A stretch of 64,000 bases of DNA, from positions 69,286 through 133,285 of the forward strand of contig NZ_FOTY01000001.1 of the NCBI RefSeq assembly GCF_900114715.1. The letters run 5' to 3'. The notes beneath the pieces were generated by a model that worked only from the letters and a program-made list of their open reading frames with translations, was not told the origin of the DNA and ran no database searches. This document shows, piece after piece, positions 23,748-44,636 of this stretch (positions are counted from its first letter, which is position 1; every line of letters starts with the position of its first letter). The stretch comes from Salibacterium qingdaonense (GTDB lineage Bacteria; Bacillota; Bacilli; Bacillales; Marinococcaceae). A program made the position numbers and the translations under genes.

Positions 23748-25172
23748 ATGAAAACAAGACAGGCAACGTTAACCGGATCTCTCATTGTACTGCTTCTGAT
23801 TACCGTCGTACTTGGTGTCAGTATTCTGCATTACGGGGTCCTGCCGCACATCCCGATTGTGCTGGCAACGATTATTACAGCGGTATACGGGCTGATGCTC
23901 CGGTACAGCTGGAAGGACATGGAGCAGTCCATGGTAAAAGGCATTTCTTACGGGATACCGGCTGTTCTGATTTTAAGTCTGATTGGTATATTGATTGGGG
24001 TATGGGCTTTGAACGGCACGGTGCCGACGATCACGTTCTACGGGCTTCAGGTACTTTCGCCGGATTTCTTTTTGGTGACAGCCGTTATCATTACAGCGGT
24101 GGTGGCCACGATGACCGGGAGTTCGTTGAGCGCGATGGGGACGATTGGTGTATCGCTGATGGGCGTCGCCTACGGTATGGGGATCTCGCCTGAAATGACA
24201 GCGGGGGCGATTGTGTCCGGGGCCATTTTTGGTGACAAATTGTCTCCGCTGTCGGATACGACGAATCTGGCGGCGGCTACGGCCAAAGTGGATGTGTTTG
24301 CACACATCCGCCACATGCTTTGGACGTCGGTACCGGCTTTTCTTATTGGATTAATTATTTTCGTTTTTATTGGATTTACGAACAGTCAGGGAGGTGCCGA
24401 TACGTCCCAGGTGGATGAAATGGCCCGCACGATGCAGTCTGAATTTATGATTACGCCGGTGACGCTGTTGTCCCCGCTTCTCATTATTGGTCTGGCCGCA
24501 CGCCGCGTCAAACCTGTGCCTTCGCTTGCGATCGGTCTTGTTGCCGCGGTGCTGACGACGTTTTATACCACCCCGGGGGCAGGTCTTGGTGACATTATGA
24601 CGGCTGCTCACGAAGGCTACACCGCAGATACCGGAATGGAATCAATAGACAGCCTGCTCTCTCTCGGCGGTCTTGAGAGTATGTTATCCGGAATATCTCT
24701 GATCATCGTGGCGCTTGGGTTCGGGGGATTGTTCCGCGGTATCGGCATCGCCCATGCGCTGATCGACAGCTTGAAACAAGTTCTCCGTAAAAAAGGCAAC
24801 GTCATCACTTCGACTGTTGTATCCTGTTTCGGCGTGAACGCGGTGATCGGGGAGCAGTATTTATCCATCATTCTCCCGGGCCAGATGCTGGAGGATTCCT
24901 ACCGCAGGGCCGGACTTCATCCGAAAAATCTGTCGCGGACACTGGAAGACGCCGGTTCGGTGCTGCATCCGCTGATTCCGTGGGGTGTGATAGGAGCGTT
25001 TGTGATGACGACGCTGGATGTCGGCATGGGGTATGTCTTCTTTACCTTCACCAGCCTTGTTACGCCGTTTATCACCCTGTTTTACGCCTATACCGGCTGG
25101 GCTCTGACCCCGCTTGATAAGGATAGTGAAAGCATGGTGGACGCCGGCGGGGATACAGATAAAACATTTTGA
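23748..25172 (+). CDS. NhaC-family Na+-coupled antiporter/transporter, paralog 1
   Basis: A 474-residue, roughly 12-helix membrane transporter of the NhaC family. Family motifs include GVWALNGTVPT, GAIFGDKLSPLSDTTNLAAA and EQYLSIILPGQM. The family includes Na+/H+ antiporters, malate/lactate exchangers and Na+-dependent amino-acid importers (TyrT, MetT). Placement beside an aromatic-type aminotransferase and a 4-HPA pathway makes amino-acid or aromatic-acid transport more likely than pH homeostasis (inference). It is nearly a duplicate of the 26640 gene: I count about 16 differences in the first 185 residues. ATG 23748 has ACGGGGAACG upstream, and a terminator follows. Confidence 0.85.
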   Translation: MKTRQATLTGSLIVLLLITVVLGVSILHYGVLPHIPIVLATIITAVYGLMLRYSWKDMEQSMVKGISYGIPAVLILSLIGILIGVWALNGTVPTITFYGLQVLSPDFFLVTAVIITAVVATMTGSSLSAMGTIGVSLMGVAYGMGISPEMTAGAIVSGAIFGDKLSPLSDTTNLAAATAKVDVFAHIRHMLWTSVPAFLIGLIIFVFIGFTNSQGGADTSQVDEMARTMQSEFMITPVTLLSPLLIIGLAARRVKPVPSLAIGLVAAVLTTFYTTPGAGLGDIMTAAHEGYTADTGMESIDSLLSLGGLESMLSGISLIIVALGFGGLFRGIGIAHALIDSLKQVLRKKGNVITSTVVSCFGVNAVIGEQYLSIILPGQMLEDSYRRAGLHPKNLSRTLEDAGSVLHPLIPWGVIGAFVMTTLDVGMGYVFFTFTSLVTPFITLFYAYTGWALTPLDKDSESMVDAGGDTDKTF

Positions 25173-25477: not shown

Positions 25478-26575
25478 ATGGTGAAACCGAGAGCACAAAT
25501 GACAGAGGTGGCGATGTATTCGCCGGGCAAACCGGTGGAGGAGCTGCAGCGGGAACTCGGTCTGTCCCGGGTCATTAAGATGGCTTCTAATGAAAACCCT
25601 TACGGATCCTCGCCAAAAGCAAGAAACGCGATGATGGAGGAGATGGAAAATATTCATTTCTACCCGGAAGTGACCGCACCGGTGCTGGCGGATGCACTGA
25701 GCAAACATCTGAATGTCTCCTCCGATCGTTTCATTTTCGGAAACGGTTCTGATGAAATTATCCGGATGCTTACTCGGACGTATGTGAATCCGGGCGAGGA
25801 AGTGGTGATGGCAGAGGTCACGTTTCCGCGTTACCGTACGAACGTCTTTATTGAAGGCGGAGTGCCGGTAAGCGTTCCAATGCGGGACGGGACCCACGAT
25901 CTTGAAGGAATGAAAACAGCGCTGAATGAAAGGACGAAAATGGTGTTTGTCTGCAATCCCAATAATCCGACCGGTACCATTGTCGGCGAACAGGAACTGC
26001 TCCGTTTTCTGGAAAGCATTCCCCCGGATGTTTTGGTCGTACTGGATGAAGCGTATTATGAATACGTGCATTCCGGCGATTACCTGGAGTCATTGGAGTA
26101 TCTGGATCAATTTCCAAACCTGATTATTCTCCGCACATTTTCTAAAGTGTACGGCATGGCGTCCGTCCGGGTTGGTTACGGTATCACCCAGCCGGAAATC
26201 GTTCAGGAACTGCTGAAAGGGAAGGAACCGTTTAATGTCAACCGGCTGGCACAGGTTGGAGCGGTTGCGGCCCTGGAAGATAATGAATTTCTGGAGAATA
26301 CACTCAAAAAGAATAAAGAAGGCCGGATGTATCTCGAAGATGCCTTCAAACGGCTGGGGCTGTCCTCTTTTCCAACACACACGAATTTTATTATGGTGGA
26401 TGTGAAACAGGATGCAGCAGCGGTGCACGAAAGTCTGTTGAAGCAGGGAGTCATTATCCGCCCGGGCCATGTGATGGGATATCCGACAATGCTGAGAGTG
26501 ACCATCGGTACAGAAGAGGAAAACGAGCAGTTCAGTCGCGCACTGGAAAAAACACTCGAAGCGATGAACGTATAA
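25478..26575 (+). CDS. HisC-type class I/II aminotransferase (histidinol-phosphate / aromatic)
   Basis: A 365-residue PLP aminotransferase of the HisC branch. The motifs are MASNENPYGSSPKA, the PLP-ring region DEAYYEYV, CNPNNPTGT, Schiff-base Lys223 in RTFSKVYGMASVRVGYG, and the C-terminal carboxylate-binding Arg in TMLRVTIG. HisC-type enzymes often also act on tyrosine and phenylalanine. No other histidine gene is nearby. It lies between two NhaC paralogs and upstream of a 2-oxoacid dehydrogenase and 4-HPA genes, so conversion of tyrosine to 4-hydroxyphenylpyruvate is the best contextual guess; histidinol phosphate remains possible. AGGAGG precedes ATG 25478. Confidence 0.8.
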   Translation: MVKPRAQMTEVAMYSPGKPVEELQRELGLSRVIKMASNENPYGSSPKARNAMMEEMENIHFYPEVTAPVLADALSKHLNVSSDRFIFGNGSDEIIRMLTRTYVNPGEEVVMAEVTFPRYRTNVFIEGGVPVSVPMRDGTHDLEGMKTALNERTKMVFVCNPNNPTGTIVGEQELLRFLESIPPDVLVVLDEAYYEYVHSGDYLESLEYLDQFPNLIILRTFSKVYGMASVRVGYGITQPEIVQELLKGKEPFNVNRLAQVGAVAALEDNEFLENTLKKNKEGRMYLEDAFKRLGLSSFPTHTNFIMVDVKQDAAAVHESLLKQGVIIRPGHVMGYPTMLRVTIGTEEENEQFSRALEKTLEAMNV

Positions 26576-26639: not shown

Positions 26640-28085
26640 ATGGAAACGAAAAAAGCAACGTTAACCGGGTCCCTTGTCGTTCTGCTGCTGATCATTGTGG
26701 TACTCGGCGTCAGTATTCTGCATTACGGCGTGGCGCCGCACATCCCAATTGTACTGGCTACAATTATTACAGCCGTGTACGGGCTGATGCTCAAATTTTC
26801 GTGGAAAGACATGGAGCGGGCGATGGTGAAGGGAATTTCCTACGGGATCCCGGCCATTCTGATTCTCAGTCTGATCGGTGTGCTGATCGGGGTATGGGCG
26901 CTGAACGGAACGGTGCCGACAATTACATTCTACGGACTGCAGGTGCTGTCGCCGAGCTTCTTCTTGGTATCAGCTGTCATCATTACAGCGGTGGTGGCGG
27001 TCATGACTGGAAGTTCGCTGAGTGCGATGGGAACGATCGGTGTGTCGCTGATGGGTGTCGCCTACGGCATGGGTATTTCCCCGGAAATGACAGCTGGTGC
27101 GATTGTATCCGGCGCGATTTTCGGTGACAAACTGTCTCCGCTTTCGGATACAACGAACCTGACGGCTGCGACGGCAAAAGTGGATGTGTTTACCCATATC
27201 CGTCATATGCTGTGGACGACCATTCCGGCTCTTGTCATTGCACTGATTATCTTCGGTGTCATAGGTTTTACAACCAGCCAGGGAGGGGCTGATACCTCTC
27301 AGGTGGATGAAATGATCAGCACGATGCAGTCTGAATTTATGATTACACCTATCACGCTGATTTCGCCGTTATTGATCATTGGTCTTGCGGTGCGCAGGGT
27401 GAAGCCGGTGCCGTCTCTTTCGATGGGGTTGATTGTTGCGGTGCTTACAACATTTTACACAAGCCCGGGATCGAGTTTCGGCGATATTATGAACGCTGCC
27501 CATGGCGGATATACAGCTGATACCGGGGTGGAGTCGATTGACAGTCTGCTGTCGCTCGGAGGACTGGAAAGTATGCTCTTCGGTGTATCACTAATAATCG
27601 TGGCGCTTGCGTTTGGCGGTCTGTTCCGAGGCATAGGGATTGCACATGCGTTGATAGACAGCATGAAAAATGTTCTCCGCAAGAAAGGCAATGTCATCAC
27701 CTCCACTGTTGTGTCCTGCTTTGGCGTGAACTTTGTGATTGGGGAACAGTATTTATCCATCATCCTTCCGGGACAGATGCTGGAAGACTCTTACCGTAAT
27801 ACCAATCTTCATCCGAAAAACCTCTCGCGGACGCTGGAAGACGCGGGATCTATTCTGCATCCGTTGATTCCGTGGGGTGTCATTGGTGCCTTTGTGATGA
27901 CGACACTGGACGTCGGCATGGGATATATCTTCTTCTGCTTCCTTTGTCTGGTGACACCGTTTATCACGCTGATCTATGCGTACACCGGCTGGACGCTCAC
28001 ACCGCTGGATGAGGATACGGGCAGCATTGTCGATACCGAAGAAGAGGAAACCGACGAGAATTCGTCCCGGTCGGAAGCGTTGTGA
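26640..28085 (+). CDS. NhaC-family Na+-coupled transporter, paralog 2
   Basis: A 481-residue NhaC-family membrane protein, near-identical to the 23748 gene through all helices and the GAIFGDKLSPLSDTTNL motif. The two differ mainly in conservative changes and in an acidic C-terminal tail (TEEEETDENSSRSEAL). It heads a tight plus-strand run: a GNAT gene 6 bp later, then E1alpha, E1beta, E2-like and esterase genes. Being first in a 2-oxoacid dehydrogenase operon suggests uptake of the substrate or exchange of a product. GGGGG lies before ATG 26640. Which of the two paralogs is ancestral cannot be read. Confidence 0.85.
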   Translation: METKKATLTGSLVVLLLIIVVLGVSILHYGVAPHIPIVLATIITAVYGLMLKFSWKDMERAMVKGISYGIPAILILSLIGVLIGVWALNGTVPTITFYGLQVLSPSFFLVSAVIITAVVAVMTGSSLSAMGTIGVSLMGVAYGMGISPEMTAGAIVSGAIFGDKLSPLSDTTNLTAATAKVDVFTHIRHMLWTTIPALVIALIIFGVIGFTTSQGGADTSQVDEMISTMQSEFMITPITLISPLLIIGLAVRRVKPVPSLSMGLIVAVLTTFYTSPGSSFGDIMNAAHGGYTADTGVESIDSLLSLGGLESMLFGVSLIIVALAFGGLFRGIGIAHALIDSMKNVLRKKGNVITSTVVSCFGVNFVIGEQYLSIILPGQMLEDSYRNTNLHPKNLSRTLEDAGSILHPLIPWGVIGAFVMTTLDVGMGYIFFCFLCLVTPFITLIYAYTGWTLTPLDEDTGSIVDTEEEETDENSSRSEAL

Positions 28086-28631: not shown

Positions 28632-29699
28632 ATGATGCTGGATCAATTTCCGATGCGTCAGATATTGAATGAAGAGGGACAGGTAATCGAAGGAGAACAG
28701 CTGCCTTTTTCGATAGAAGAGGTCAAACGGTTTTATTACCTGATGCTGCGGGCGCGCATGCTTGATAAAAAAAGTGTAAATATGCAGCGGCAGGGCCGGA
28801 TCGGCACCTACGTGCAGTATGAAGGACAGGAGGCGGCCCAGGTCGGAAGTGCGGCGGCACTCGAAGACGGGGACTGGATGTTTCCGACGTACCGTGACCA
28901 TGCGGCGACCCTTACATTTGGTCATTCGATGCGGAACCTTCTGCTGAACTGGCGGGGGCGGCTGGAAGGCGGACTGCCGCCGGAAGGGGTGAATATTTTT
29001 CCGCCGGCGATTCCGATTGCTTCCCAGCTCCCTCATGCGGCCGGTGCGGCCTGGGCGGAGAAAAAACGCGGCACGGACCGTGTTTCCCTTGTCTATTTCG
29101 GTGACGGTGCCACGTCGGAAGGCGATTTTCATGAAGGATTGAACTTTGCCAGTGTGTTCCAGGTACCGGCGGTGTTTTTCAATCAGAATAACGGCTTTGC
29201 AATCAGTGTGCCGATGGAAAAACAGATGCACGCCAAAACGATTGCCCAGAAAGGGCTCGGCTATGATATTCCGTGCGAACGTGTCGACGGTAACGATATT
29301 ACCGCTGTCTATACGGCGGTGAAAGAAGCGGTGCATCGTGCCCGGAGCGGGGGAGGTCCGACGCTTCTCGAGGCAGTAACATGGCGGTACGGTGCTCATA
29401 CGACAGCAGATGATCCGACCAAATACCGGGATCAGTCAGAAAGTGAGCGCCGCCGGGAAACGATGGATCCGCTGCTCCGCCTGGAACGTTATCTGAAACA
29501 TCAGGACGCCTGGAAAGATCAATGGGTGTCTTCCCTGGAGGAAGAGATCTCAGCGGAAATCGAGCAGGCAGTGGAAGAGATGGAAAACTATCCGGAAGCC
29601 GATATCAGTCAGTTGTTTGATCATGTCTATGATGTACCAACATGGACGCTGCAGGAGCAGATTGACGAACATCTGGCAGTGAAAGGGAGGAATGGCTGA
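28632..29699 (+). CDS. 2-oxoacid dehydrogenase E1 component, alpha subunit (PdhA-like)
   Basis: A 355-residue thiamine-diphosphate E1 alpha subunit. The TPP motif runs from FGDGATSEGDFHEG to FNQNNGFAIS (GDG...NN). Other signatures are GRIGTYVQYEGQEAAQVGSA, FPTYRDHAATL and YGAHTTADDP with the phosphorylation-loop-like region. With the beta subunit it decarboxylates a 2-oxoacid and transfers the acyl group to lipoyl-E2. Bacillus pdh and bkd operons contain E3 and a full-length E2, which are lacking here, so this is a dedicated extra complex. Context suggests 4-hydroxyphenylpyruvate as substrate. It ends in a TGATG overlap with the beta-subunit gene. Confidence 0.9.
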   Translation: MMLDQFPMRQILNEEGQVIEGEQLPFSIEEVKRFYYLMLRARMLDKKSVNMQRQGRIGTYVQYEGQEAAQVGSAAALEDGDWMFPTYRDHAATLTFGHSMRNLLLNWRGRLEGGLPPEGVNIFPPAIPIASQLPHAAGAAWAEKKRGTDRVSLVYFGDGATSEGDFHEGLNFASVFQVPAVFFNQNNGFAISVPMEKQMHAKTIAQKGLGYDIPCERVDGNDITAVYTAVKEAVHRARSGGGPTLLEAVTWRYGAHTTADDPTKYRDQSESERRRETMDPLLRLERYLKHQDAWKDQWVSSLEEEISAEIEQAVEEMENYPEADISQLFDHVYDVPTWTLQEQIDEHLAVKGRNG

Positions 29700-30697
29700 T
29701 GACAACAACAGTGGAAACCAAAAATCTGACCATGATCCAGGGGATTAATGAAGCGCTCCGGACCAAACTGGAGGAAGATGACCAGGTGCTCGTGCTCGGC
29801 CAGGACGTCGGGGTGAACGGCGGTGTGTTCCGCGCGACGGAAGGACTTCATGAACAGTTCGGCGGCGAACGGGTCATTGATACTCCACTCGCCGAGTCCG
29901 GCATCGTCGGGACTTCGGTCGGCATGGCGGCGAACGGGTTCCGGCCGGTGGCGGAGATGCAGTTTCTCGGCTTTATTTATCCGGCTTTCAACCAGATTAT
30001 GACGCACGTCAGCCGTATCCGCCAGCGTTCGATGGGGCGCTATACAGCGCCAATGGTAATCCGGGCGCCGTTTGGAGCAGGCGTTCGTGCGCCGGAGGTT
30101 CATTCCGACAGCGTCGAAGCGTTGTTTACGCATATGCCGGGTGTGAAAGTAGTGGTGCCTTCCAACGCTTATGATGCCAAAGGCCTTCTCATTTCTGCCA
30201 TCGAAGATCCGGACCCTGTCATTTTTCTTGAGCCGATGCGCTGTTACCGGTCTTCCCGCACGGAAGTCCCGGAAGAAAAATACACGGTTAAGCTCGGCAA
30301 AGCAGCCGTGCGCCGGGAAGGAGAAGACATTTCTGTATTCACCTGGGGGGCCATGACCATCGAGACGATGAAAGCTGTGGAACAGGTGGAACAGGAAGAA
30401 AATATCACCTGTGACGTGATTGATCTGCGCACGCTGTATCCCATGGATAAAGAAGCCATTGCCGCCTCCGTTCAGAAAACAGGACGCGCCCTTATCGTTC
30501 ATGAAGCACCTGCCACCGGCGGAGTAAGCAGTGAAGTCATGGCTGTTATTAATGATACGTCGTTTTTGTACCTCTGTTCTCCGGTGGAACGCGTCTGCGG
30601 CTTTGACACGCCGGTGCCGGTGTATTCTCTCGAGAACGAATACATTCCGAGCCCGGAAAAAATTAAACGTGCCATCAGACGCAGTGTTGCGTTTTAA
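29699..30697 (+). CDS. 2-oxoacid dehydrogenase E1 component, beta subunit (PdhB-like)
   Basis: A 332-residue E1 beta subunit. The signatures are ALRTKLEEDDQVLVLGQDVG, GVFRATEGL, DTPLAESGIVGTSVGMAANG and APFGAGVRAPEVHSDS, with GYDTPFP replaced by GFDTPVPVYSLENEYIPS. It forms the alpha2beta2 core and supplies the lipoyl-binding face. The start overlaps the alpha-subunit stop, and the E2-like gene starts 18 bp later with AAAGGAGG. No lesions are seen. The substrate is unassigned from sequence alone. Confidence 0.9.
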   Translation: MTTTVETKNLTMIQGINEALRTKLEEDDQVLVLGQDVGVNGGVFRATEGLHEQFGGERVIDTPLAESGIVGTSVGMAANGFRPVAEMQFLGFIYPAFNQIMTHVSRIRQRSMGRYTAPMVIRAPFGAGVRAPEVHSDSVEALFTHMPGVKVVVPSNAYDAKGLLISAIEDPDPVIFLEPMRCYRSSRTEVPEEKYTVKLGKAAVRREGEDISVFTWGAMTIETMKAVEQVEQEENITCDVIDLRTLYPMDKEAIAASVQKTGRALIVHEAPATGGVSSEVMAVINDTSFLYLCSPVERVCGFDTPVPVYSLENEYIPSPEKIKRAIRRSVAF

Positions 30698-30715: not shown

Positions 30716-31843
30716 ATGTTTGAAGTGAAACTTCATGATATCGGCGAAGGCATGCACGAAGCCGAAGTGCTGCATTATTTTGTCGAGACGGGGGATGCCG
30801 TAAAAAATGACCAACCGCTCGTGGAAGTGCAGACGGATAAAATGAACGCAGAAATTCCGTCGCCGCGCGCAGGGACCATCAAAGAGCTGAAAGCGGCGGT
30901 CGGTGACGTAGTAGAAGTTGGAAATACGATACTTGTGCTGGATGACGGACAGGAAGCATCGGAATCTGGTGCTGCTTCCGGTTCGGAAGCCGGGAAAGCG
31001 GAACCGGCAGGAGGGGCTCCTACTGCGGTGAAATCCAAAACGGAAACAGCTGCGGCTGTCATGACACCGCCCCGGCATAAACGGGTTATCGCAGCACCGC
31101 ACACGAGACGGATCGCCCGGGAACAAAAGGTGGACATCGAACAGATTGAAGGAACGGGTAAAAATGGCCGGGTGCTGGATGAAGACATTTTTACCTTCGC
31201 GCGGAACGGGGATAACGTTGGGAAAGCGACGGCAGAGCCGCAGGAAGAAATGATGCCGGACACGGCGGCGCTTTCTGAAACAACCGGCTTTTTTACCCTG
31301 CCTGCTGTCAGTTACCGCCGGGAAGTGGATGTGACCAAGGTGCAGGAGCGCCGGAAAGTGCTTCAGGAGCACGGATTGAATATATCTGTGACCGCGTTTG
31401 TGATCAAAGCACTGCAGACAGCCTGGTCGAAGAGTTCTTTGAAGCAGGCGGAAGAATGTCATATCGGCCTTGTGACGGAGACAGAAACCGGTTTTGCCGT
31501 CCCGGTGCTGGAAGATGTGCAGCATATCTCGTTATCCCGCATTGACACTGGGCGCAGGGAGGCATCATCTTCTGACACTGCTCCGGTACTGGCGGTGACG
31601 AATATGGATCCGGAAGAGGACACGCCGGTTCCGATGGGCTGTACGAAAGTACCGACGGCTGTTCTGCATCCTATTACGGAAAAAGCAGCGGTGAAAAACG
31701 GGGAAGTATCGGTATGTGACATGATGGAAGTTACGCTGACCATCGATACGCGTCAGGTGCCGCCGCAGGCAGCGGCAGGTCTCCTCCGCGAGACGGCAGG
31801 CCTGATCGAACATCCCGACTTGATGCTCGCGGAAATGGTTTGA
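30716..31843 (+). CDS. E2-like lipoyl protein with degenerate acyltransferase domain
   Basis: A 375-residue protein with E2 architecture. A lipoyl domain (residues 1-80, lipoylated Lys42 in [11 protein letters not shown]) is followed by an Ala/Gly linker, a peripheral subunit-binding domain ([20 protein letters not shown], about 125-160) and a catalytic-like domain (about 185-375). The last is shortened and altered. The universal DHRxxDG motif reads DTRQVPP (residues 344-350), so the catalytic His and Asp-Gly are gone, and the FTISNLGxFG stretch is replaced by [16 protein letters not shown]. CoA transacylation is therefore doubtful. It could carry acyl-lipoyl for another acceptor, perhaps the adjacent esterase. 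The linker and lipoyl parts look functional. Confidence 0.85.
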
Positions 31844-31854: not shown

Positions 31855-32748
31855 ATGACAAAGTCATTGGCACAAGAAACGATCATGATACATGGCACGG
31901 AGCGGATATACCGTTATTATGTTCCTTCAACGGTGACGACGGATACCCCGGCGCCGCTGATGATCAGTTTTCACGGCGCCGGCAGTGACGCTGCCTATCA
32001 CAGCAGGTTAACAGGCTTTACCGAAACAGCGGAAGAGGAAGGGTTTATCGTTCTCTTTCCGGAGGCGGTCGAAGCAAAGCCGGGCCGGTCTTTAACAAGA
32101 CAGTGGAATGAAGGCCGCAAAGGGAGCATGGCATCTGAGGCAGGCATCGAGGATATTCTTTTTACAGAAAAAATTCTGAAACAATGGCAGAAACACTATA
32201 CGGTGGATACGAATCGAATCTATGCGACCGGATTCTCCAACGGCGCCAGTTTCAGTCTCCGGGCTGCGATTGAACTTCCGGGCACGTTTGCCGGCGTCGG
32301 GGCTGTTGCAGGTCCGCTTCCGGAACCACTGCAGCAGCAGGAAACCAACGGTCTTCCGCCGCTTGTGTTTATCATGGGCCGCGAAGATCCAGTCGTCCCG
32401 TTTGCCGCTGAAGATGCCAAAGGCGAAGTGGACTATGACATCACCGGACTGCTCGGATCCCGTGCGACAGCGGAATGGTGGACCTACCAGTCGGCTTCTT
32501 CGTGGGAGCGGAAAGAAGAACGGCTTGCCCCGCTCTCGCTGCATGATTCGACGCGGGTGGAGCGCGATCTTTATGAAACAGATACCGGTCAGATAGCGGC
32601 GGCACTCTATATCATAAAAGGGGGAGGCCATACGTGGCCCGGAGGACTGAAAGTACAGCACCCGGACTTTGGCCGCGTCAGTCAACAGCTCGATGCAGGC
32701 CGAACCATCTGGCAGATGCTGCAGTCGATGTCCGGAGCCAGCCGGTAA
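31855..32748 (+). CDS. Cytoplasmic CE1/LpqC-type esterase
   Basis: A 297-residue alpha/beta hydrolase of the PHB-depolymerase/feruloyl-esterase (LpqC) group. The triad motifs are GFSNGASFSL (nucleophile Ser), GREDPVVPF (Asp) and GGGHTWPGG (His); the oxyanion region is SFHGAGSDAAYH. Relatives are usually secreted, but this protein has no signal peptide. Start ATG 31855 follows GAGGTGGG, 11 bp after the E2-like stop, so it is the last gene of the dehydrogenase operon. I infer that it may hydrolyse the acyl-thioester product or an aromatic ester to give free 4-HPA; a plain aromatic esterase is the alternative. Confidence 0.8.
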   Translation: MTKSLAQETIMIHGTERIYRYYVPSTVTTDTPAPLMISFHGAGSDAAYHSRLTGFTETAEEEGFIVLFPEAVEAKPGRSLTRQWNEGRKGSMASEAGIEDILFTEKILKQWQKHYTVDTNRIYATGFSNGASFSLRAAIELPGTFAGVGAVAGPLPEPLQQQETNGLPPLVFIMGREDPVVPFAAEDAKGEVDYDITGLLGSRATAEWWTYQSASSWERKEERLAPLSLHDSTRVERDLYETDTGQIAAALYIIKGGGHTWPGGLKVQHPDFGRVSQQLDAGRTIWQMLQSMSGASR

Positions 32749-32779: not shown

Positions 32780-32812
32780 CCTGCCGGGAAAAGGCCCGGC
32801 AGGTTATTTTTT
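32780..32812 (+). terminator. Terminator between esterase and hpaF
   Basis: CCTGCCGGG (32780-32788) and CCCGGCAGG (32795-32803) form a perfect stem, followed by TTATTTTTT. It ends the plus-strand operon and overlaps the last codons of the convergent hpaF. Confidence 0.9.
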
Positions 32813-33190
32813 ATACCGTGGATGGATATTGTTTTTCTTATAGGTCCCGCCTTCGCCGAATTCCTGCAGTTCGAGGGAGAGAGCGAGGTACCGTTTCTCA
32901 AATAGATCGGAGAAGTGCGTTTCCATCACTTCAAATAATTTCTCAGAGATCATCGTCTTGTCCTCTTTTGAACGGCCGCCGCCGATTTTCAGCATGGCGT
33001 GGATGAAGGCATCGTCTTCGGTATCATCGGCAATGACATAGTCGTTCAGCTCGATGGCGCGCGACCGAACGCCCCCGACGGGAAAAAGGTCGGGGTGGGC
33101 GGTCAGCACGTCATTGATTTTTTTCAAAAACCCGCGGATGTCGCCGTCTGCTTTCAGGTTATCGGTATATTCCACGATGAAATGCGGCAT
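32804..33190 (-). CDS. hpaF: 5-carboxymethyl-2-hydroxymuconate delta-isomerase
   Basis: A 128-residue tautomerase-fold isomerase of the homoprotocatechuate meta-cleavage pathway. It isomerises 5-carboxymethyl-2-hydroxymuconate to the 2-oxo-3-ene form. The N-terminal Pro2 (MPHFIVEYTDNL) is the catalytic base after Met removal, and the family motifs RSRAIELNDYVIAD, FIHAMLKIGGGRS and HFSDLFEKRYLALSLEL are clear. Length is normal. It lies 14 bp after hpaG2 with GGAGGAACC-type ribosome sequence and is the last gene of the minus-strand hpa operon. Confidence 0.93.
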   Translation of the reverse strand: MPHFIVEYTDNLKADGDIRGFLKKINDVLTAHPDLFPVGGVRSRAIELNDYVIADDTEDDAFIHAMLKIGGGRSKEDKTMISEKLFEVMETHFSDLFEKRYLALSLELQEFGEGGTYKKNNIHPRYKK

Positions 33191-33204: not shown

Positions 33205-33945
33205 TTATGCGTGGCGGATGTAGTTGGTCAGGGCGCCGATTCCTTCGATTTCAGTGACGACCGTATCGCCTGCGTGCACCTGATCGAGCCCTTCCGGTGT
33301 GCCTGTCAGAATGACGTCATTGGGATTCAGGGTCATAAAGCTGCTCAAGTATTCAATCAGATCCGGAATCTTGAAAATCATATCGGCGGTCGTTCCTTCC
33401 TGGGTAAGACGGTCGTTGATGTAGGTTTTCAGCGTCAGGTTCATCGGGTCGTAAATATCGTCGCGGTCAACAAACCAGGGGCCGAGCGGGGTGCACGTAT
33501 CCCGGTTTTTTACGCGCAGGTTGGGACGGTAATAGTTTTCGAGATAATCGCGGATAGCATAATCATTACCGATGGTGTACCCGGCGACATAGTCATAGGC
33601 GTCTTCTTTTTTTACATCTTTGGCCGTCCGTCCGATGACAACGCCCAGTTCACACTCGTAGTGCATGTTTTCCGCTTCCTGCGGACGCTTTGTTTCGCCG
33701 CGGTGGCCGATAAATGTATTTGGCCCTTTCAGAAAAACAAGCGGTTCCTCGGGAGCTTTAAAGGAAAGCTCTTTGGCGTGGTCGGCGTAGTTCAGACCGA
33801 GGGCAAAGGTAGTCTGCGGCTGCACCGGCGGCAGCCATTCCACGTTTTCTTCATTCAAAAGGCGTCCGTCTTCCAGTTTGATACATCCGTTTTCTTCGAC
33901 GGCATCGTGAAGAACGCCGCCTGCAGCGACTCGTGCTCGTTTCAT
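33205..33945 (-). CDS. hpaG2: HpaG2: homoprotocatechuate-pathway decarboxylase/isomerase, C-terminal-half homolog
   Basis: A 246-residue FAH-fold protein equal to the second half of the fused E. coli HpaG. Metal-binding motifs are ALGLNYADHAKEL, FLKGPNTFIGH, MHYECELGVVIG and the C-terminal LTGTPEGLDQV. Together with HpaG1 it decarboxylates 5-oxo-pent-3-ene-1,2,5-tricarboxylate and isomerises the product 2-hydroxyhepta-2,4-diene-1,7-dioate. Start ATG 33945 follows GGAGGATG; a longer frame overlapping hpaG1 has no site. The gap to hpaG1 is 16 bp. Confidence 0.88.
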   Translation of the reverse strand: MKRARVAAGGVLHDAVEENGCIKLEDGRLLNEENVEWLPPVQPQTTFALGLNYADHAKELSFKAPEEPLVFLKGPNTFIGHRGETKRPQEAENMHYECELGVVIGRTAKDVKKEDAYDYVAGYTIGNDYAIRDYLENYYRPNLRVKNRDTCTPLGPWFVDRDDIYDPMNLTLKTYINDRLTQEGTTADMIFKIPDLIEYLSSFMTLNPNDVILTGTPEGLDQVHAGDTVVTEIEGIGALTNYIRHA

Positions 33946-33961
33946 GATTGTACATCCTCCT

Positions 33962-34708
33962 TTATTGTATCGTGTTTTCGAGTGTGCCGATCTGTTCAAT
34001 GGTAACCTGGACGTGATCGCCTTTCTGCACGTGTGGGGGACGGGCCGGCGTACCGGTGAGCAGAACGTCTCCTTCATACAGTGTCATGAATTCTGTGACG
34101 TCAGCCAGGAGCCGGGGAATGGAGCGCACCAATCCGGCGGTGGAAGCTTTCTGTTTTGTTTCACTGTTCACCTTTGTTTCGATCGTCAGTTGATCGGGGT
34201 CCGGCACATCAGCTTTATCAACAATCCAAGGTCCGACCGGGCAGAATTTATCCCGTGCTTTCTGTTTGATGGGAGGGCGGTGGAAACTCTCGAACGGCAG
34301 GCTGATATCATTGGCAGCCGTGAAGCCCTCAATATATTCCCATGCGTCTCCGGGATTCACCTGAACGGCTGTTTTTCCGATTACAATGCCGAGGGATGCT
34401 CCTGTCTGAAGCTCATTTTCGTCTGCAGGCATCGGCACCGGGTGCTGGTGTGGATTCAGTGTGTTCACTGGTTTGATGTACAGCACCGGAGCTTCCGGCG
34501 GTTTGTTGTACGGTTTTTCGTGAAGAGCATCTCCCAGTTCGTCCAGTTCTTCCCTATAATTCAGGGCCGCGCCGTATACGGTGCCGTTCACCGGAACACG
34601 CCATGTCACGTTGTTGTCCGGCAGTCCGCGGACGTCGTTGGTTTCAGGCTGCACGTCCATCGGTACCGGATATATTTTCTCGTTGTAAAGCCCCTTGGCA
34701 GTTGCCAT
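33962..34708 (-). CDS. hpaG1: HpaG1: homoprotocatechuate-pathway decarboxylase/isomerase, N-terminal-half homolog
   Basis: A 248-residue FAH-fold protein equal to the first half of fused HpaG. Motifs are VYGAALNYREELDEL, PVLYIKPVNTLNPH, GASLGIVIGKTAVQV, GFTAANDISLPFES and LLTGTPARPP. It starts at ATG 34708 (MATAKGLYNEKIYPV) after AAGGAGTG. The split gene pair is the Gram-positive arrangement. No hydratase (HpaH) gene accompanies it, although HpaH shares this fold, so one of the two could in principle supply that activity. It is the first gene of the minus-strand run hpaG1-hpaG2-hpaF. Confidence 0.87.
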   Translation of the reverse strand: MATAKGLYNEKIYPVPMDVQPETNDVRGLPDNNVTWRVPVNGTVYGAALNYREELDELGDALHEKPYNKPPEAPVLYIKPVNTLNPHQHPVPMPADENELQTGASLGIVIGKTAVQVNPGDAWEYIEGFTAANDISLPFESFHRPPIKQKARDKFCPVGPWIVDKADVPDPDQLTIETKVNSETKQKASTAGLVRSIPRLLADVTEFMTLYEGDVLLTGTPARPPHVQKGDHVQVTIEQIGTLENTIQ

Positions 34709-34825
34709 ATTCTTCACTCCTTTATCAGTAATACGAAAGCGCATTCACTATATAATATATTTAATAATATATGATTTTAAATAAAAACTCAACAGAAAAG
34801 GAGCCAACCCCTTCAAGGTTCTCCT

Positions 34826-36525: not shown

Positions 36526-36559
36526 ACAAGGGCGTGCTATCTTGAAGGTGCAGGTTAAT

Positions 36560-36573
36560 TGAAAGCGCTAACA
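36560..36573 (+). promoter_or_regulatory. Perfect cre site before hpaE
   Basis: TGAAAGCGCTAACA fits TGWAANCGNTNWCA at every position. It lies 22 bp before the hpaE start and just ahead of its GAGGAGG ribosome site, so CcpA bound here could block transcription of the hpa operon. Confidence 0.8.
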
Positions 36574-36594
36574 AAAGAGGAGGTATCCTTTATT

Positions 36595-38115
36595 ATGGCT
36601 GATTCACGTTTACAGGATGTCAGTGAAGCAGGAAAACAGGCAATAGAATCGATTTCTGATATTCCATTGTATATCGACGGCACGTTTACGGGTGCTGCGT
36701 CCAACGAAACATTTGATAATATTTCTCCTTTTACGAACACAAAAATAAACAGTGTTGCCTCCGGCGGCGGAGAGGATATTGAAAAAGCCGTAAAAGCTGC
36801 AAGAAGTGCTTTTAACGGTGAATGGGGCAATCTGAAACTGAAAGAACGGCTGAACTACATTCATAAAATCGCGGATCTGATTGATGAGCATATTGATGAG
36901 ATCGCACCACTCGAATCTTACGACACCGGGCTTCCGCTCAGCCAGACGAAAAAAATGGTGGCCCGCGCCGCCCAGAACTTCCGTTTTTATGCGGAGATGG
37001 TATCGAGCCGGCTGGTTGGGGAGGTTTACCAGGTGGATGATGACTTCATCAACTACACCATCCATAAGCCGGTTGGCATTGCAGGACTGATCACGCCGTG
37101 GAACGCACCATTCATGCTCGAAACATGGAAGATTGCACCTGCCCTTGCAACCGGTAACACGATTGTGCTGAAGCCGGCGGAATGGTCGCCGCTCACAGCC
37201 AACCGGCTTGCTGAAATCATCGATAAGGCCGAACTTCCGGACGGAGTATTTAACGTCGTGCACGGCTTCGGAGAAACAGCAGGAGCGTCCCTTGTGTCCC
37301 ATCCGGATGTGGAGCTGATCTCTTTTACCGGTGAAACGACAACCGGCGCGGAAATCATGAAGAACGGTGCCGATTCTCTGAAGCAGTTCTCGATGGAGCT
37401 CGGCGGCAAGTCGCCCATTATTGTATTCGATGACGCTGATATTGAACGGGCGTTGGATGCGTGCACGTGGGGCATTTTTTCCTTCAATGGCGAACGCTGC
37501 ACTGCCAATTCGCGCCTGTACGTTCATGAAAACATTGCCGAGTCGTTCACGAAACGGCTGAAGGAAAGGGTGCATAACATTATCGTCGGTGATCCGATGA
37601 AAACCGATACCCAGGTTGGACCGCTTATCCACACGAACCACTATGAAAATGTGAAACAATATCTTGAACTGGCGGAGCAGGAAGGCTGTGAGGTTGTCAG
37701 CGGCACTGTACCGGAAGAGATGAAAAGCGGAAACTTCATTGCACCGACGGTTCTTTTGAACGCCGGCAACAGTATGCGTGTCGTACAGGAGGAAGTATTC
37801 GGGCCGGTGATTGCCGTCATGACATTCACAGATGAAGAAGAAGTGATTGAAAAAGCGAACGATGTCCGTTACGGCCTGGCCGGTTATGTTTGGACGAAAG
37901 ATATCCAGCGCGGCCACCGCGTCGCCCAGAAAGTTGATTCCGGTATGCTCTGGGTTAATTCCCAGAACGTCCGCGATCTCCGCACCCCTTTTGGCGGGTC
38001 AAAGCACAGCGGCATCGGCCGGGAAGGCGGCCATTATGCCTTTGAATTCTACACCGAAGTTCAGATTATTCATGTCGCGCTGGGAGACCACCACATTCCG
38101 CAGTTCGGAAAATAA
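36595..38115 (+). CDS. hpaE: 5-carboxymethyl-2-hydroxymuconate semialdehyde dehydrogenase
   Basis: A 506-residue NAD-dependent aldehyde dehydrogenase that oxidises the ring-cleavage semialdehyde. The motifs are the N-terminal oxyanion Asn in GLITPWNAPFMLETWK, NAD-binding ISFTGETTTGAEI, the general base Glu in MELGGKSPIIVFDD and catalytic Cys in FSFNGERCTANSRLYVH. It matches HpaE in length and in the C-terminus EFYTEVQIIHVALGDHHIP. ATG 36595 is chosen because GAGGAGG precedes it; the longer frame starts inside the cre site. It is the first gene of the hpaE-B-D-ALDH-C operon. Confidence 0.92.
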   Translation: MADSRLQDVSEAGKQAIESISDIPLYIDGTFTGAASNETFDNISPFTNTKINSVASGGGEDIEKAVKAARSAFNGEWGNLKLKERLNYIHKIADLIDEHIDEIAPLESYDTGLPLSQTKKMVARAAQNFRFYAEMVSSRLVGEVYQVDDDFINYTIHKPVGIAGLITPWNAPFMLETWKIAPALATGNTIVLKPAEWSPLTANRLAEIIDKAELPDGVFNVVHGFGETAGASLVSHPDVELISFTGETTTGAEIMKNGADSLKQFSMELGGKSPIIVFDDADIERALDACTWGIFSFNGERCTANSRLYVHENIAESFTKRLKERVHNIIVGDPMKTDTQVGPLIHTNHYENVKQYLELAEQEGCEVVSGTVPEEMKSGNFIAPTVLLNAGNSMRVVQEEVFGPVIAVMTFTDEEEVIEKANDVRYGLAGYVWTKDIQRGHRVAQKVDSGMLWVNSQNVRDLRTPFGGSKHSGIGREGGHYAFEFYTEVQIIHVALGDHHIPQFGK

Positions 38116-38144: not shown

Positions 38145-39620
38145 ATGCCAGCAAAAACAGGAGCTGAATACAAAGAGAGACTCAGACAGGCAGGGAACAA
38201 TGTTTATATCCACGGGGAGAGGGTGGACGATCCAACCACACACACAGCTTTTAAAAATGTGATTGACTCCATGGCCCATCTCTATGATCTTCAGTTTGAA
38301 AAGCCGGAAAAAATGTTGTATACGTCTCCAACCTCCGGAGAGCAGGTAGGAATGACTTTTTTTCAGCCGAAAACGATTGATGACTTGATCAAGAGAAGAG
38401 AAGCCATTCAGGAGTGGGCGAAAACCTCCGGCGGTATGCTCGGCCGTTCCCCGGATTACCTGAACGCTGAAGTGATGGCGATGGGTATTGCGAACGATCT
38501 GTTCGCCGAAGATGATCCGATGTTTGCCGAGAATGCGAAAAAATACTATGAATATGCAAGAGAAAATGACATCAGTCTCACCCACACACTGATTCATCCG
38601 CAGGTAAACCGGCAGAAAGCCCAAAATGAACAAGATGATGCAAACGTAGCGCTGCACCTTGTGGAAAAACAGGAAGACGGCATTGTTGTAGACGGCGCCA
38701 GGCTCCTTGCAACGCAGGGCGGTATCACCGACGAAATTCTTGTCTTCCCATCAACGGTTAAAAAATCCGGGGAGCAGGACGATCCTTACTCCCTTGCTTT
38801 TGTAGTGCCGAATAATACAACAGGATTGAAATATATCAGCCGTGAATCCTTTGATTACGGGAGAAACGAATGGGATCATCCATTAAGCAGCCGTTTCGAA
38901 GAAGGAGACGCTATCGTATACTTTGATAACGTTTTCGTACCTTGGGAGAGAGTTTTTGTCTGCGGTAATTCATCAATCTGCAACCGCACGTTCACAGAAA
39001 CCAATGCGGTGGTGCACATGACTCATCAGGTTGTTGCCAAAAACATCGTAAAAACGGAGTTTGTTCTTGGCGTTGTCCTGAAACTCATTGATGCGATCGG
39101 TATCGATCAGTTCCAGCATGTGCAGGATAAAGGAACAGAAATCATGCTCACGCTTGAAACAATGAAATCGCACCTTTACCGTGCCGAACACAATGCTTCC
39201 CTTGATAAATGGGGAACCATGACACCGGATTTTGATGCACTGAATGCAGCTAGAAACTGGTATCCGAGAATTTATCCACGTCTTGTGGAAATTCTCCGTA
39301 TTCTCGGAGCATCCGGCCTGATGGGCATTCCGACGGAAGAAGACTTCCATAATGAAGAAATCGGCCATCTTGTAAACCGTGGCCTGCAGGCGAAGAATCT
39401 CGAAGGTTATGAAAGAGTGAAACTGTTCCGTCTTGCCTGGGATCTTACCATGAGCGCCTTTGGAAGCCGCCAGATGCATTATGAATATTATTTCTTCGGC
39501 GATCCGATCAAGATGGGCATGGCTTATTTCGAGCAGTATGACAAAGAACCTTACAAAAAATATGTGGAAGACTTTTTGGACAGCGTGAAATCGTCCAAAC
39601 CGGACTTCTCCAACATTTAA
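38145..39620 (+). CDS. hpaB: 4-hydroxyphenylacetate 3-monooxygenase, oxygenase component
   Basis: A 491-residue FADH2-using hydroxylase that turns 4-HPA into 3,4-dihydroxyphenylacetate. It needs reduced flavin from HpaC. The motifs SLTHTLIHPQVNRQKA, the flavin/substrate segment VVDGARLLATQGGITDE, and FVPWERVFVCGNSSICN are those of the acyl-CoA-dehydrogenase-fold HpaB family. The sequence ARNWYPRIYPRLVEILRILG and the tail fit Bacillus/Geobacillus-type HpaB. GGAGGAAAC lies before ATG 38145. It is 29 bp after hpaE. Confidence 0.94.
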   Translation: MPAKTGAEYKERLRQAGNNVYIHGERVDDPTTHTAFKNVIDSMAHLYDLQFEKPEKMLYTSPTSGEQVGMTFFQPKTIDDLIKRREAIQEWAKTSGGMLGRSPDYLNAEVMAMGIANDLFAEDDPMFAENAKKYYEYARENDISLTHTLIHPQVNRQKAQNEQDDANVALHLVEKQEDGIVVDGARLLATQGGITDEILVFPSTVKKSGEQDDPYSLAFVVPNNTTGLKYISRESFDYGRNEWDHPLSSRFEEGDAIVYFDNVFVPWERVFVCGNSSICNRTFTETNAVVHMTHQVVAKNIVKTEFVLGVVLKLIDAIGIDQFQHVQDKGTEIMLTLETMKSHLYRAEHNASLDKWGTMTPDFDALNAARNWYPRIYPRLVEILRILGASGLMGIPTEEDFHNEEIGHLVNRGLQAKNLEGYERVKLFRLAWDLTMSAFGSRQMHYEYYFFGDPIKMGMAYFEQYDKEPYKKYVEDFLDSVKSSKPDFSNI

Positions 39621-39629: not shown

Positions 39630-40613
39630 ATGGTGAACTTTGATATTATTCGGTGTGGGCGTGCCGTCCTGCATGTCACTGATCTGGAAAAGTCGAAAGA
39701 GTTTTATGACGCTCTTGGTTTTATTGAAACCGAAGCAGACAGCGAAAATATTTTTTTACGAGGGTTGGAGGAGCACAATCACCACAGCCTCTGGTTGAAA
39801 AAAAAGGCTGAGCCGGCACTCGAAGTCATCAGCTACAAAGTCCGCTCGGAAGAAGACCTGGATGCCTTGGCAGGCTTCTTTGAATCGCAGCAGCGGCAAG
39901 TTATCTGGATGGAAGCCGGATCCCAGAATGCCCTGGGACGTTCCCTCCGGGTGATGGATCCGAACGGCCTGCCGGTAGAGTACTATGCCCGGATGGATAC
40001 GGCAGAGCGGATGCTTCAGCGCTACGATGTGTATAAAGGCGCCAAAGTCCAGCGTATTGATCATTTTAACTGCATGGTGCCGGATGTAGAAGGAGCGCAC
40101 AACTATTATATCGATGAACTCGGCTTTGCCTGCTCGGAGTATACGGCCGGAGAAGAGGAACGGATCTGGGCGGCATGGCTGCACCGGAAGCCGAGTGTTC
40201 ATGATGTGGCATTTATGAATGGACCGGGACCGCGGCTTCATCACGTTGGCTTCTGGTTGAAAGATCCGATGAGCCTGATCGATGGCTGCGATTATCTGGC
40301 CGCTAAAGGGTTTGCCCCTGGTATTGAACGCGGTCCGGGACGCCACGGTTTGTCGAATGCTTTTTTCCTCTATCTCCGTGATCCGGATGGACACCGTATT
40401 GAGTTGTACAACGGAGACTATCTCACAAGTGACCCGGACTTCAAACCGATCCGCTGGGATCTGAACGACCCTATGCGTCAGACCTTCTGGGGACACGAAG
40501 CACCGGACAGCTGGTTTGAAGAAGCCACGGAAGTCCTTGATGTTCATTCAGGCAGAAAGCGCGGTTTGGAGGAACCATTGTTGAAGAAAAGAAAGCCGAA
40601 TTTTGTAACCTGA
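39630..40613 (+). CDS. hpaD: 3,4-dihydroxyphenylacetate 2,3-dioxygenase
   Basis: A 327-residue extradiol dioxygenase with two vicinal-oxygen-chelate modules. The metal ligands are His in VQRIDHFNCMV, His in PRLHHVGFWL and Glu in HRIELYNGDYL, the type I extradiol set, so Fe(II) (or Mn(II)) opens the ring of homoprotocatechuate between C2 and C3. Its residue pattern with FWLKDPMSLIDGCDYLAAKG and the basic C-terminal tail KKRKPNFVT resembles Arthrobacter/Brevibacterium HpcB-MndD more than the unrelated E. coli type. AAGGAGGG precedes ATG 39630, 9 bp after hpaB. Confidence 0.92.
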   Translation: MVNFDIIRCGRAVLHVTDLEKSKEFYDALGFIETEADSENIFLRGLEEHNHHSLWLKKKAEPALEVISYKVRSEEDLDALAGFFESQQRQVIWMEAGSQNALGRSLRVMDPNGLPVEYYARMDTAERMLQRYDVYKGAKVQRIDHFNCMVPDVEGAHNYYIDELGFACSEYTAGEEERIWAAWLHRKPSVHDVAFMNGPGPRLHHVGFWLKDPMSLIDGCDYLAAKGFAPGIERGPGRHGLSNAFFLYLRDPDGHRIELYNGDYLTSDPDFKPIRWDLNDPMRQTFWGHEAPDSWFEEATEVLDVHSGRKRGLEEPLLKKRKPNFVT

Positions 40614-42098: not shown

Positions 42099-42575
42099 AT
42101 GGATGATCGTATGTTCAAGACAGCGATGGGAAAATTCGCTACAGGAGTGACCGTTATTACAACGGAATTCGATGATCAAGTGCGCGGTATGACAGCAAAC
42201 GCTTTTATGTCAGTGTCTATTGACCCAAAACTTGTATTGATATCTGTTGCCAATAAGGCTAGAATGCTTGATTGGATCAAACAATCCGGCCATTTTGCGG
42301 TGAATATTCTATCAGAAAGCCAGCAGGATAAATCCATGATATTTGCCGGACAGCTGCAAGACCGGGAAGTAGAATTTGAACGATTTGAAGGACTTCCTGT
42401 CATTGAAGACTCTTTGGTAACTCTGGCCTGCGATGTGTATGAAACCCACCTGGCCGGTGACCACACTCTATTTGTCGGAGCCGTGAAAAATCTTCAGCTG
42501 CAGGACAGACAGCCTCTTACTATTTATGAAGGAAAATATAAGGACGTCAGCGATAAAGCAGCAACCGAAGTTTAA
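42099..42575 (+). CDS. hpaC: 4-HPA 3-monooxygenase flavin reductase component
   Basis: A 158-residue NADH:flavin reductase of the HpaC/split-barrel family. The motifs are KFATGVTVITTEFDDQVRGMTANAFMSVS (positions 12-40), DPKLVLISVANKAR and GDHTLFVGAVKNLQ. It supplies FADH2 to HpaB by diffusion. AGGTGATAAC precedes ATG 42099, and the FAD-synthetase-like gene follows after 15 bp. Length is normal. Confidence 0.92.
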   Translation: MDDRMFKTAMGKFATGVTVITTEFDDQVRGMTANAFMSVSIDPKLVLISVANKARMLDWIKQSGHFAVNILSESQQDKSMIFAGQLQDREVEFERFEGLPVIEDSLVTLACDVYETHLAGDHTLFVGAVKNLQLQDRQPLTIYEGKYKDVSDKAATEV

Positions 42576-43715: not shown

Positions 43716-44636
43716 ATGGTTGCGAACTATGAAGAGGTAAAGTCCAGGCTGCGCGGCTCGATGGCCCCGGTCATCACACCGTTCACCAAAAATCACGATG
43801 TCGATTACGAGAAACTGGCGGAGCTGATCGAATTTCAGATAGACAACGGGAGCCACGCCATTTCAGTTACCGGGACGTCCGGAGAACCGAGCTCTCTCTC
43901 AGTGGAAGAGCGGGAAAAAGTGATGGAGACAGCGGTGAAAACAGTCAACGGCCGTGTGCCTGTTGCTCCCGGTACAGGATCAACCAATCACGCCGAAACG
44001 ATGCGGCTGACGAAAAGCGCAGAGGAAATGGGCGCGGACGCAGCTCTTGTGATTGTGCCGTATTACAACAAACCGAATCAGGAAGCACTATTCAAACATT
44101 TTAAGACGGTTGCCGATTCGGTGGAGATTCCGGTTATCATTTACAATATCCCTGGGCGGACGGCGCAGAACCTGCAGGTGTCGACTCTGGCGCGGCTGAA
44201 TGACGCGTGCCCGAATATCATCGGAGTGAAGGAATCCAACAAAGACTTTGAGCATGTGAACCGGGTGCTTCTCAACTGCGGCAGAGACTTCCTGCTGTTC
44301 TCGGGGATTGAACTGCTCTGCTATCCGATGCTTGCGATCGGAGGCACCGGCTCTATCAGTGCCACGGCAAACGTCCTGCCGTCGAAAGTGGCGGAACTGC
44401 ACGATGCCTGGTTTGACGGTGACGTGGAAAGGGCACAGGAACTTCATTATGACCTGATGCCGTTGAATGATGTGCTCTTTAAAGATACGAACCCGGCGCC
44501 GGTTAAATCAGCGCTCGGCATGATGGGTAAAATAGAACCAGAGCTGCGTCTTCCGATGGATGTTCCTTCAAAAGACCTGCAGCAGGAAATCTATGAGACA
44601 TTAAAGCAGTATAATATTAAAGCACAATATGCATAA
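43716..44636 (+). CDS. DapA-family aldolase (probable HpaI replacement)
   Basis: A 306-residue (beta/alpha)8 Schiff-base aldolase of the dihydrodipicolinate synthase family. Tyr is in VIIYNIPGRTAQNL, the Schiff-base Lys in IIGVKESNKDFEH, and the substrate-carboxylate motif is TGTSGEPSSLS (GTTGE equivalent with Ser/Pro changes). These changes, and the absence of other lysine genes, argue against DapA itself. The pathway requires cleavage of 4-hydroxy-2-oxoheptanedioate to pyruvate and succinic semialdehyde and no HpaI is present, so this aldolase probably does it (inference). It is separated by 249 bp from the main operon and has its own cre-like site. Confidence 0.8.
   Translation: MVANYEEVKSRLRGSMAPVITPFTKNHDVDYEKLAELIEFQIDNGSHAISVTGTSGEPSSLSVEEREKVMETAVKTVNGRVPVAPGTGSTNHAETMRLTKSAEEMGADAALVIVPYYNKPNQEALFKHFKTVADSVEIPVIIYNIPGRTAQNLQVSTLARLNDACPNIIGVKESNKDFEHVNRVLLNCGRDFLLFSGIELLCYPMLAIGGTGSISATANVLPSKVAELHDAWFDGDVERAQELHYDLMPLNDVLFKDTNPAPVKSALGMMGKIEPELRLPMDVPSKDLQQEIYETLKQYNIKAQYA

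Follow-up and report, generated by a model that had tools for sequence, protein, structure and literature searches.

In the window, the 64,000-nucleotide stretch of Salibacterium qingdaonense DNA analysed here, an operon for a 2-oxoacid dehydrogenase complex encodes an E2-like protein (E2*, P0001) that retains its lipoyl and subunit-binding domains and has lost the acyltransferase motif, a loss shared by all 11 orthologues found in the family. It is moderately favoured that E2* supplies lipoyl carriage and subunit binding to a dehydrogenase complex for arylpyruvate (4-hydroxyphenylpyruvate) in which CoA esters are no longer formed and from which a hydrolase of the same operon would free the acid (features in Table 1). 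The aminotransferase would convert tyrosine to 4-hydroxyphenylpyruvate, and E1 (alpha and beta) would decarboxylate this product and load the resulting 4-hydroxyphenylacetyl moiety onto the lipoyl arm at Lys42. The serine hydrolase (or, alternatively, water), replacing the E2 active site, would cleave the thioester to give free 4-hydroxyphenylacetate for consumption by HpaB, while E3 would reoxidize the dihydrolipoyl group with NAD+. Within this scheme, the substrate, the acyl acceptor and the docking of the hydrolase are the parts that we infer.

Table 1. Position of the operon genes, the parts of E2* and the neighbouring hpa genes in the window
Feature	Position	Strand	Evidence
HisC-like aminotransferase, proposed tyrosine to 4-hydroxyphenylpyruvate	25478..26575	+	TIGR01141 hisC 357.8 bits, cut-off 276.55
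NhaC-family antiporter	26640..28085	+	TIGR00931 441.2 bits
E1 alpha, ThDP-dependent 2-oxoacid decarboxylase subunit (P0003)	28632..29699	+	E1_dh 304.3 bits; TIGR03181 460.6 bits
E1 beta	29699..30697	+	Transket_pyr, Transketolase_C
E2*, lipoyl carrier without acyltransferase motif (P0001)	30716..31843	+	Translation, Pfam, orthologue alignment
Lipoyl domain, residues 1-76; Lys42 at 30839-30841	30716..30943	+	Biotin_lipoyl 76.6 bits
Peripheral subunit-binding domain, residues 124-158	31085..31189	+	E3_binding 47.5 bits
Remnant of the catalytic domain, residues 192-375, with a probably retained fold and without its active site	31289..31840	+	
DTRQVPP replacing DHRxxDG	31745..31765	+	Translation, alignment
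Alpha/beta hydrolase (P0002), PHA-depolymerase/feruloyl-esterase type, proposed acyl-lipoyl thioesterase; Ser128 32236-32238, His259 32629-32631	31855..32748	+	
HpaF-like isomerase	32804..33190	-	NF011605 123.3 bits, below cut-off 215
HpaG C-terminal-type subunit	33205..34077	-	TIGR02303 394.2 bits
HpaG N-terminal-type subunit	33962..34744	-	TIGR02305 260.9 bits
HpaE semialdehyde dehydrogenase	36559..38115	+	TIGR02299 796.7 bits
HpaB 4-hydroxyphenylacetate 3-monooxygenase	38145..39620	+	TIGR02309 778.4 bits
HpaD ring-cleavage dioxygenase	39630..40613	+	TIGR02295 446.1 bits
HpaC-type flavin reductase	42099..42575	+	NF042921 135.4 bits, below cut-off 200
HpaI-type aldolase	43716..44636	+	TIGR02313 496.1 bits

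The E2* gene translates into 375 codons uninterrupted by stops, as the original prediction for this DNA had it, and the two N-terminal domains are as intact as was then claimed. The Biotin_lipoyl match in Pfam spans residues 3-75, Lys42, the predicted site of modification, is invariant in 11/11 orthologues, and the 11 proteins together retain 98% of 21 near-invariant lipoyl positions and 100% of nine such positions of the subunit-binding domain, all nine being kept in every one of them. The acyltransferase domain scores 58.6 bits in Pfam over the whole protein, the best stretch covering just 26-127 of 232 positions, and a profile search of the genome returns it in two pieces (26-128 and 178-231 of 232). 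At the motif, the sequence reads D344-T345-R346-Q347-V348-P349-P350, with the catalytic His replaced by Thr and the Asp-Gly pair by Pro-Pro, and the TFTxSNxG strand is altered in all 11 orthologues, that of the window included; both changes had been predicted, the latter as a rewritten FTISNLGxFG-type strand. Alignment further reveals that the N-terminal helix motif RRKxIA is absent from 11/11 E2* and that the segments between this helix, the strand and the motif have been shortened. E2* is like the E2 of other bacterial 2-oxoacid dehydrogenase complexes in its lipoyl and subunit-binding domains, in a CAT-like core (in the structure model) and in being encoded together with both E1 subunits and, in most cases, E3, but unlike it in these three catalytic-domain changes, which are common to all 11. 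None of the 11 has the catalytic His of DHRxx(D/N)G, and, as judged from sequence, the complex would be a variant of the 2-oxoacid dehydrogenase complex whose E2 falls outside the definition of an acyltransferase at the catalytic residue.

Orthologues were sought with P0001 in 29 genomes of the family, and E2* was identified as the top match, among the matches listed, in 11 of these (G000, G018, G002, G004, G005, G006, G007, G017, G024, G025 and G026, the last of which we take to be Salsuginibacillus kocurii DSM 18087, L037); in the 18 remaining genomes the motif was read for part of the weaker E2 matches. Among the matches listed, E2* occurs in seven of 12 genera and is patchy inside them (two of four genomes in g1, two of three in g3, one of four in g9), so that loss or transfer of the entire operon must also have occurred; this patchiness counts against the main reading. 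In one alignment, the catalytic His is missing from 11/11 E2*, while DHRxxDG is kept by 27/27 related E2s, a pattern beyond chance; whether homologues share the lost motif had been proposed as a check, and all 11 orthologues found in the family do. The intact set and the tree described below exclude the locus L072, the tree includes L113, which has no E2 and so is not among the 27, and L125 and L126 are in neither. The residues occupying the His position across the 11 E2* are T, T, R, R, Q, T, T, S, T, P and P, and D344 and R346 are retained in 11/11. Fifteen of the 55 catalytic-domain positions that are near-invariant in the 27 intact E2s are lost from all 11 E2*, with a mean retention of 38%, and the domain spans 192-222 aa in E2* versus 223-229 aa in the 27 others. 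Nine residues are invariant in the E2* remnant, all of them the commonest residue in the intact E2s, which suggests that structure has been preserved and not that another active site has formed. Local decay of E2* and a sequencing error were both rejected, the loss being common to 11 genomes.

A tree of E1 alpha and E1 beta (39 taxa, 679 columns; supports as SH-aLRT/bootstrap) joins the 11 E2* genomes in one clade (99.9/100), with four genomes from another family of the same order as its sister (joint clade, 100/100), and a single motif loss on the branch to the 11 accounts for the data. All four sister genomes have the gene order aminotransferase, E1 alpha, E1 beta, E2, NhaC-family antiporter, hydrolase, two HpaG-type genes and HpaF, with HpaE, HpaB and HpaD next or running off the stretch read, and the E2 of these operons has an intact motif (FDHRVADG). 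Such intact relatives had been named in advance as a sign of local decay; they do exist, but in a sister clade whose operon already includes the esterase. Together, the E2* and sister groups join complexes found across the order (99.5/99), with weak support for a placement inside or beside them (88/53, 61.6/48). Since the hydrolase occurs in both sister groups, its arrival in the operon probably predates the loss of the motif. The same distribution counts against the main reading, as a hydrolase that accompanies an intact E2 may act on CoA esters or on unrelated esters.

We would give an even chance to the broader proposal of a 2-oxoacid dehydrogenase complex that releases free acid without CoA, having discarded its acyltransferase and using a separate serine hydrolase for release. 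The thioesterase would have joined the operon first, as in the sister clade with its intact E2, and the CoA step would then have been lost once, in the lineage that seven genera now represent, because it is the free acid that feeds the following pathway. Textbook 2-oxoacid dehydrogenase complexes conserve the thioester as acyl-CoA; if the proposal is true, the complex can be used for oxidation and release only, and an intact E2, an intact E2 with hydrolase and a dead E2 with hydrolase would form a natural series for studying the loss of a central activity. Among the open-access literature matches listed (titles and starts of abstracts), there was neither an acid-releasing lipoyl complex nor a phenylpyruvate dehydrogenase complex of bacilli, a weak negative.

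Selection was estimated by the Nei-Gojobori method for three E2* pairs and two intact-E2 pairs, with the pairs G006-G005 and G365-G116 left out due to saturated dS in most parts. Omega for the catalytic core is 0.212, 0.187 and 0.204 in the E2* pairs (95% upper limits 0.314, 0.361 and 0.419) and 0.016 and 0.015 in the intact pairs; the values for the intact pair G190-G398 (dS near 1.5) and the E2* pair G000-G018 (dS near 0.9-1.8) are rough. The dead catalytic domain is thus relaxed about tenfold, yet it is under purifying selection (omega of about 0.2). For the lipoyl domain, the same three E2* pairs have omegas of 0.080, 0.248 and 0.105, and in the pair G004-G002 this domain is no tighter than the core (0.25 vs 0.19), which counts against the main reading; E1 alpha and E1 beta range from 0.017 to 0.069 in three E2* pairs. 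The original prediction of selected change in place of decay holds in that the change is inherited, kept and constrained, but needs modifying for the catalytic domain, which looks eroded (omega of about 0.2 vs about 0.015).

Of the checks that had been proposed, comparison with E2 catalytic domains confirms the loss of the motif, and structure prediction suggests a conserved fold. A structure model of E2*, of low confidence (mean pLDDT, 59.9; built from a four-row alignment including two E2s with an intact motif), matches the E2 core fold over residues 187-374 (6zzn; Z, 15.2; 3.3 Å; 173 residues), so the CAT-like core fold is probably retained. The sequence suggests that the catalytic domain has been eroded and not rebuilt, and what remains of the C-terminal domain probably serves folding or assembly only.

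Two less likely explanations bear on these results. If the complex is decaying, E1, E2* and E3 would be remnants or have a minor role (e.g., lipoyl redox chemistry) and the operon would survive for its other genes. This would fit the relaxed and variably long catalytic domain, the departure of E3 from the operon in 2/11 genomes and the patchiness within genera, but is very improbable given the low omegas of both E1 subunits, the 98-100% retention of lipoyl and subunit-binding positions, a catalytic remnant that is still below neutrality and the occurrence of E2* in seven of 12 genera among the matches listed. Equally improbable is a residual E2* domain that slowly hydrolyses or transfers the acyl group with a changed site, while the hydrolase serves the hpa pathway in the ordinary way by releasing esters. 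The invariant D344 and R346 and a core omega below 1 are compatible with some activity, and, in a study of E. coli E2o, the His is not strictly needed, with H375A costing 54-fold rather than all activity and H375W little (PMC5986005). Loss of the His alone is therefore no proof of inactivity; E2* has also lost the helix motif and has a changed strand. Against a working site, the residue in place of the His may be T, R, Q, S or P, and the nine invariant residues of the remnant, being those commonest in intact E2s, leave a new site unmarked.

NCBIfam names the aminotransferase as HisC and E1 alpha as pyruvate dehydrogenase, and it follows that 4-hydroxyphenylpyruvate as the substrate is a guess from context, as is the aromatic role suggested for the HisC-like enzyme. 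An aminotransferase homologue lies in the stretch read in 8/11 E2* genomes, that of the window included, and directly before E1 alpha in 4/4 sister operons; in the other three E2* genomes the stretch read has none, which counts against the main reading. In the window the aminotransferase is flanked by two copies of an NhaC-family antiporter (23748-25172 and 26640-28085), and a homologue of the second copy sits between E2 and esterase in all four sister operons. E3 is encoded inside the operon in 9/11 E2* genomes, the operon copies having dihydrolipoyl dehydrogenase as their best match just below the cut-off (372-408 vs 408.8 bits), a shortfall that counts against the main reading. The window genome has its E3 outside the operon, with three other E3s above the cut-off. 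The E2* operon of G002 (L042) adjoins carnitine-dehydrogenase-like, ProV-type and HMG-CoA-lyase-like genes far from hpaB, and the neighbourhood in G004 (L041) looks similar, the gene families having been tested on L042.

A hydrolase homologue is present in the E2* operon of all 11 genomes, and within the family the hydrolase is found in the same 11/29 genomes, with a weak and partial twelfth match (28% over 140 residues). S128 (in GFSNG), D178 and H259, to which triad roles are assigned by conservation, are invariant in 11/11, so the original choice of the esterase as the first candidate for receiving the acyl group appears sensible. It had also been proposed that the esterase gene overlaps that of E2*. 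The overlap depends on a TTG start at 31840 and was rejected as an artefact, as the homologue alignment fits the ATG at 31855, which leaves an 11-base gap. P0002 scores 137.4 bits against the type 1 scl-PHA depolymerase family NF050058, under the cut-off of 150, and its nearest solved relatives are one enzyme that is called feruloyl esterase in the sequence comparison and acetyl xylan esterase in the fold comparison, plus a PHB depolymerase; as the esterase model is poor (mean pLDDT, 47.2; two rows), the fold matches are used as agreement with the sequence only. In a sample of 397 genomes of the order, the hydrolase occurs in 12 (E<=1e-30), of which 10 have it within such an operon and two (L067 and L068) outside one, the latter being excluded from the members. 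A search at the level of the class (398 genomes, E<=1e-40) returned the window's own genome alone (1/398).

A lipoyl carrier coupled to a hydrolase-fold enzyme has a counterpart in the AcoC-type E2 of acetoin dehydrogenase, in which one chain holds a lipoyl domain and an alpha/beta hydrolase that is thought to transfer the acyl group to CoA. The E2* system is alike in that a functional CAT-like acyltransferase is replaced by the pairing of a lipoyl carrier and an enzyme of the hydrolase fold, but it is split over two genes, its hydrolase belongs to the PHA-depolymerase/feruloyl-esterase type, and its carrier still has a CAT-like domain, though a dead one. It is improbable that the operon hydrolase acts in the same manner, as an acyltransferase from lipoyl to CoA. 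The presence of its gene together with that of the carrier in all 11 operons would suit this role, as would a match of the carrier part of P0001 to NF011457, named acetoin dehydrogenase E2, a family that we take to carry the hydrolase domain. P0002 itself, however, has no match to NF011457 at E<=0.001 and instead matches PHA-depolymerase and feruloyl-esterase families, and, with HpaB needing the free acid, a CoA ester would demand a further step.

The known protein nearest to E2* is the eukaryotic E3-binding protein (E3BP; protein X, PDHX), which has the domain order of E2 and an inactive core, reduced in fungi and devoid of the catalytic His in animals; it functions in a complex that also contains an active E2, and one study argues that its gene is broadly eukaryotic (PMC10156792). 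E2* differs in being bacterial and the sole E2 of its operon, with a hydrolase gene and, in most genomes, genes for an aromatic-acid pathway as neighbours, and the E1 tree, which holds no eukaryotic sequence, groups its operon with bacterial arylpyruvate complexes. The main rival to the proposed acid release is that E2* is a bacterial counterpart of E3BP, a dead paralogue in or on an active E2 core that carries out the CoA transfer, with a separate thioesterase freeing the acid. Lipoyl domain, subunit-binding domain and an inactive, partly reduced core are the layout described for E3BP (PMC10156792), the low-confidence model of E2* keeps the E2 core fold, the motif is intact in four further E2s of the window genome, and G005 and G006 encode a second arylpyruvate-type E1-E2 with an intact motif. 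We nevertheless regard this as unlikely. No active E2 partner lies in the E2* operons read, the hydrolase co-occurs with E2* across the 29 genomes, and 11/11 E2* no longer have the RRKxIA helix motif. Further, 5/6 E2* genomes of the order sample have one E1 alpha at E<=1e-115 (best five or fewer candidates scored per genome), which implies no close second aryl complex for E2* to join. Retention of a dead core in mammalian E3BP has been called unexplained (PMC10156792), and the E2* clade would allow the persistence of such a core to be studied in bacteria.

The pathway next to the operon is that of 4-hydroxyphenylacetate, with both HpaG subunits, HpaE, HpaB, HpaD and HpaI above their cut-offs in the window and HpaF- and HpaC-like proteins below; a RibF-like FAD synthase gene (42591-43466), below cut-offs, adjoins the HpaC-type flavin reductase. 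HpaB above the cut-off is present in 11/11 E2* genomes versus 5/18 other family genomes (one, G009, broken), and the distance from hpaB to E2* is at most about 15 kb in 8/11 and about 30 kb, along one contig, in G007; G002 and G004 have the two far apart, which counts against the main reading. In G009, the main copies of hpaB and hpaD are broken (C25:15716-18090). HpaB takes the free acid, whereas the paa pathway begins from phenylacetyl-CoA. HPPD, the usual next step for 4-hydroxyphenylpyruvate, was not detected in any of the 11 E2* genomes and was present in 1/29 genomes of the family overall; if the proposed scheme is true, the operon would let bacteria with no detected HPPD convert tyrosine to 4-hydroxyphenylacetate. 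In the order sample, HpaB is found in 88/397 genomes (E<=1e-175), including all 10 with the operon hydrolase. The esterase as a general partner of 4-hydroxyphenylacetate genes was rejected, with 78/88 HpaB genomes giving no hydrolase match at E<=1e-30.

Genomes G008-G011, four of the five that have HpaB and no E2*, lack the hydrolase, and the stretch with their paaA also holds E1-E2 genes in which FDHRVADG is intact; paaA, paaB, paaC and PaaX were identified on L069, the locus tested for paa genes. However, paaA also occurs in 4/11 E2* genomes, each with an adjacent PaaK, and in 6/18 of the others, so the contrast between acid and CoA is not exclusive. G005 and G006 carry, in addition to the E2* operon, a separate arylpyruvate-type E1-E2 locus with an intact motif, and a strict split of acid and CoA by genome was rejected on these grounds. 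The second E2 of G006 (L126, 5835-6794), 319 aa with an intact motif, has no N-terminal lipoyl part in the open frame. At L072 in G010, E1 beta is in two pieces, the E2 has an intact motif and no lipoyl part, and paaA has an internal stop; the aryl complex may be decaying in this genome.

The operons found across the order (L103-L122) encode E1 alpha, E1 beta, E2 and mostly E3, with an E2 in 19/20 loci, the motif intact in 19/19 and an E1 alpha 58-68% identical to P0003. They share the E1 alpha, E1 beta, E2 order of the E2* operon, with which the E1 tree groups them, but differ in the intact motif and in an amino-acid dehydrogenase that replaces the aminotransferase, which together with an FlK-type thioesterase precedes E1 alpha at L104, the one locus tested. 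The P0002-type hydrolase was absent from the genomes with these operons at E<=1e-30. The order-wide operon probably encodes an arylpyruvate (phenylpyruvate) dehydrogenase complex; the open-access literature matches listed include no paper on it. Some of these operons lie near PaaX/paa-like genes or HPPD (L118). At L113 (G386, 9888-11950), E1 alpha and E1 beta of the subfamily occur with no E2 gene found within the stretch read.
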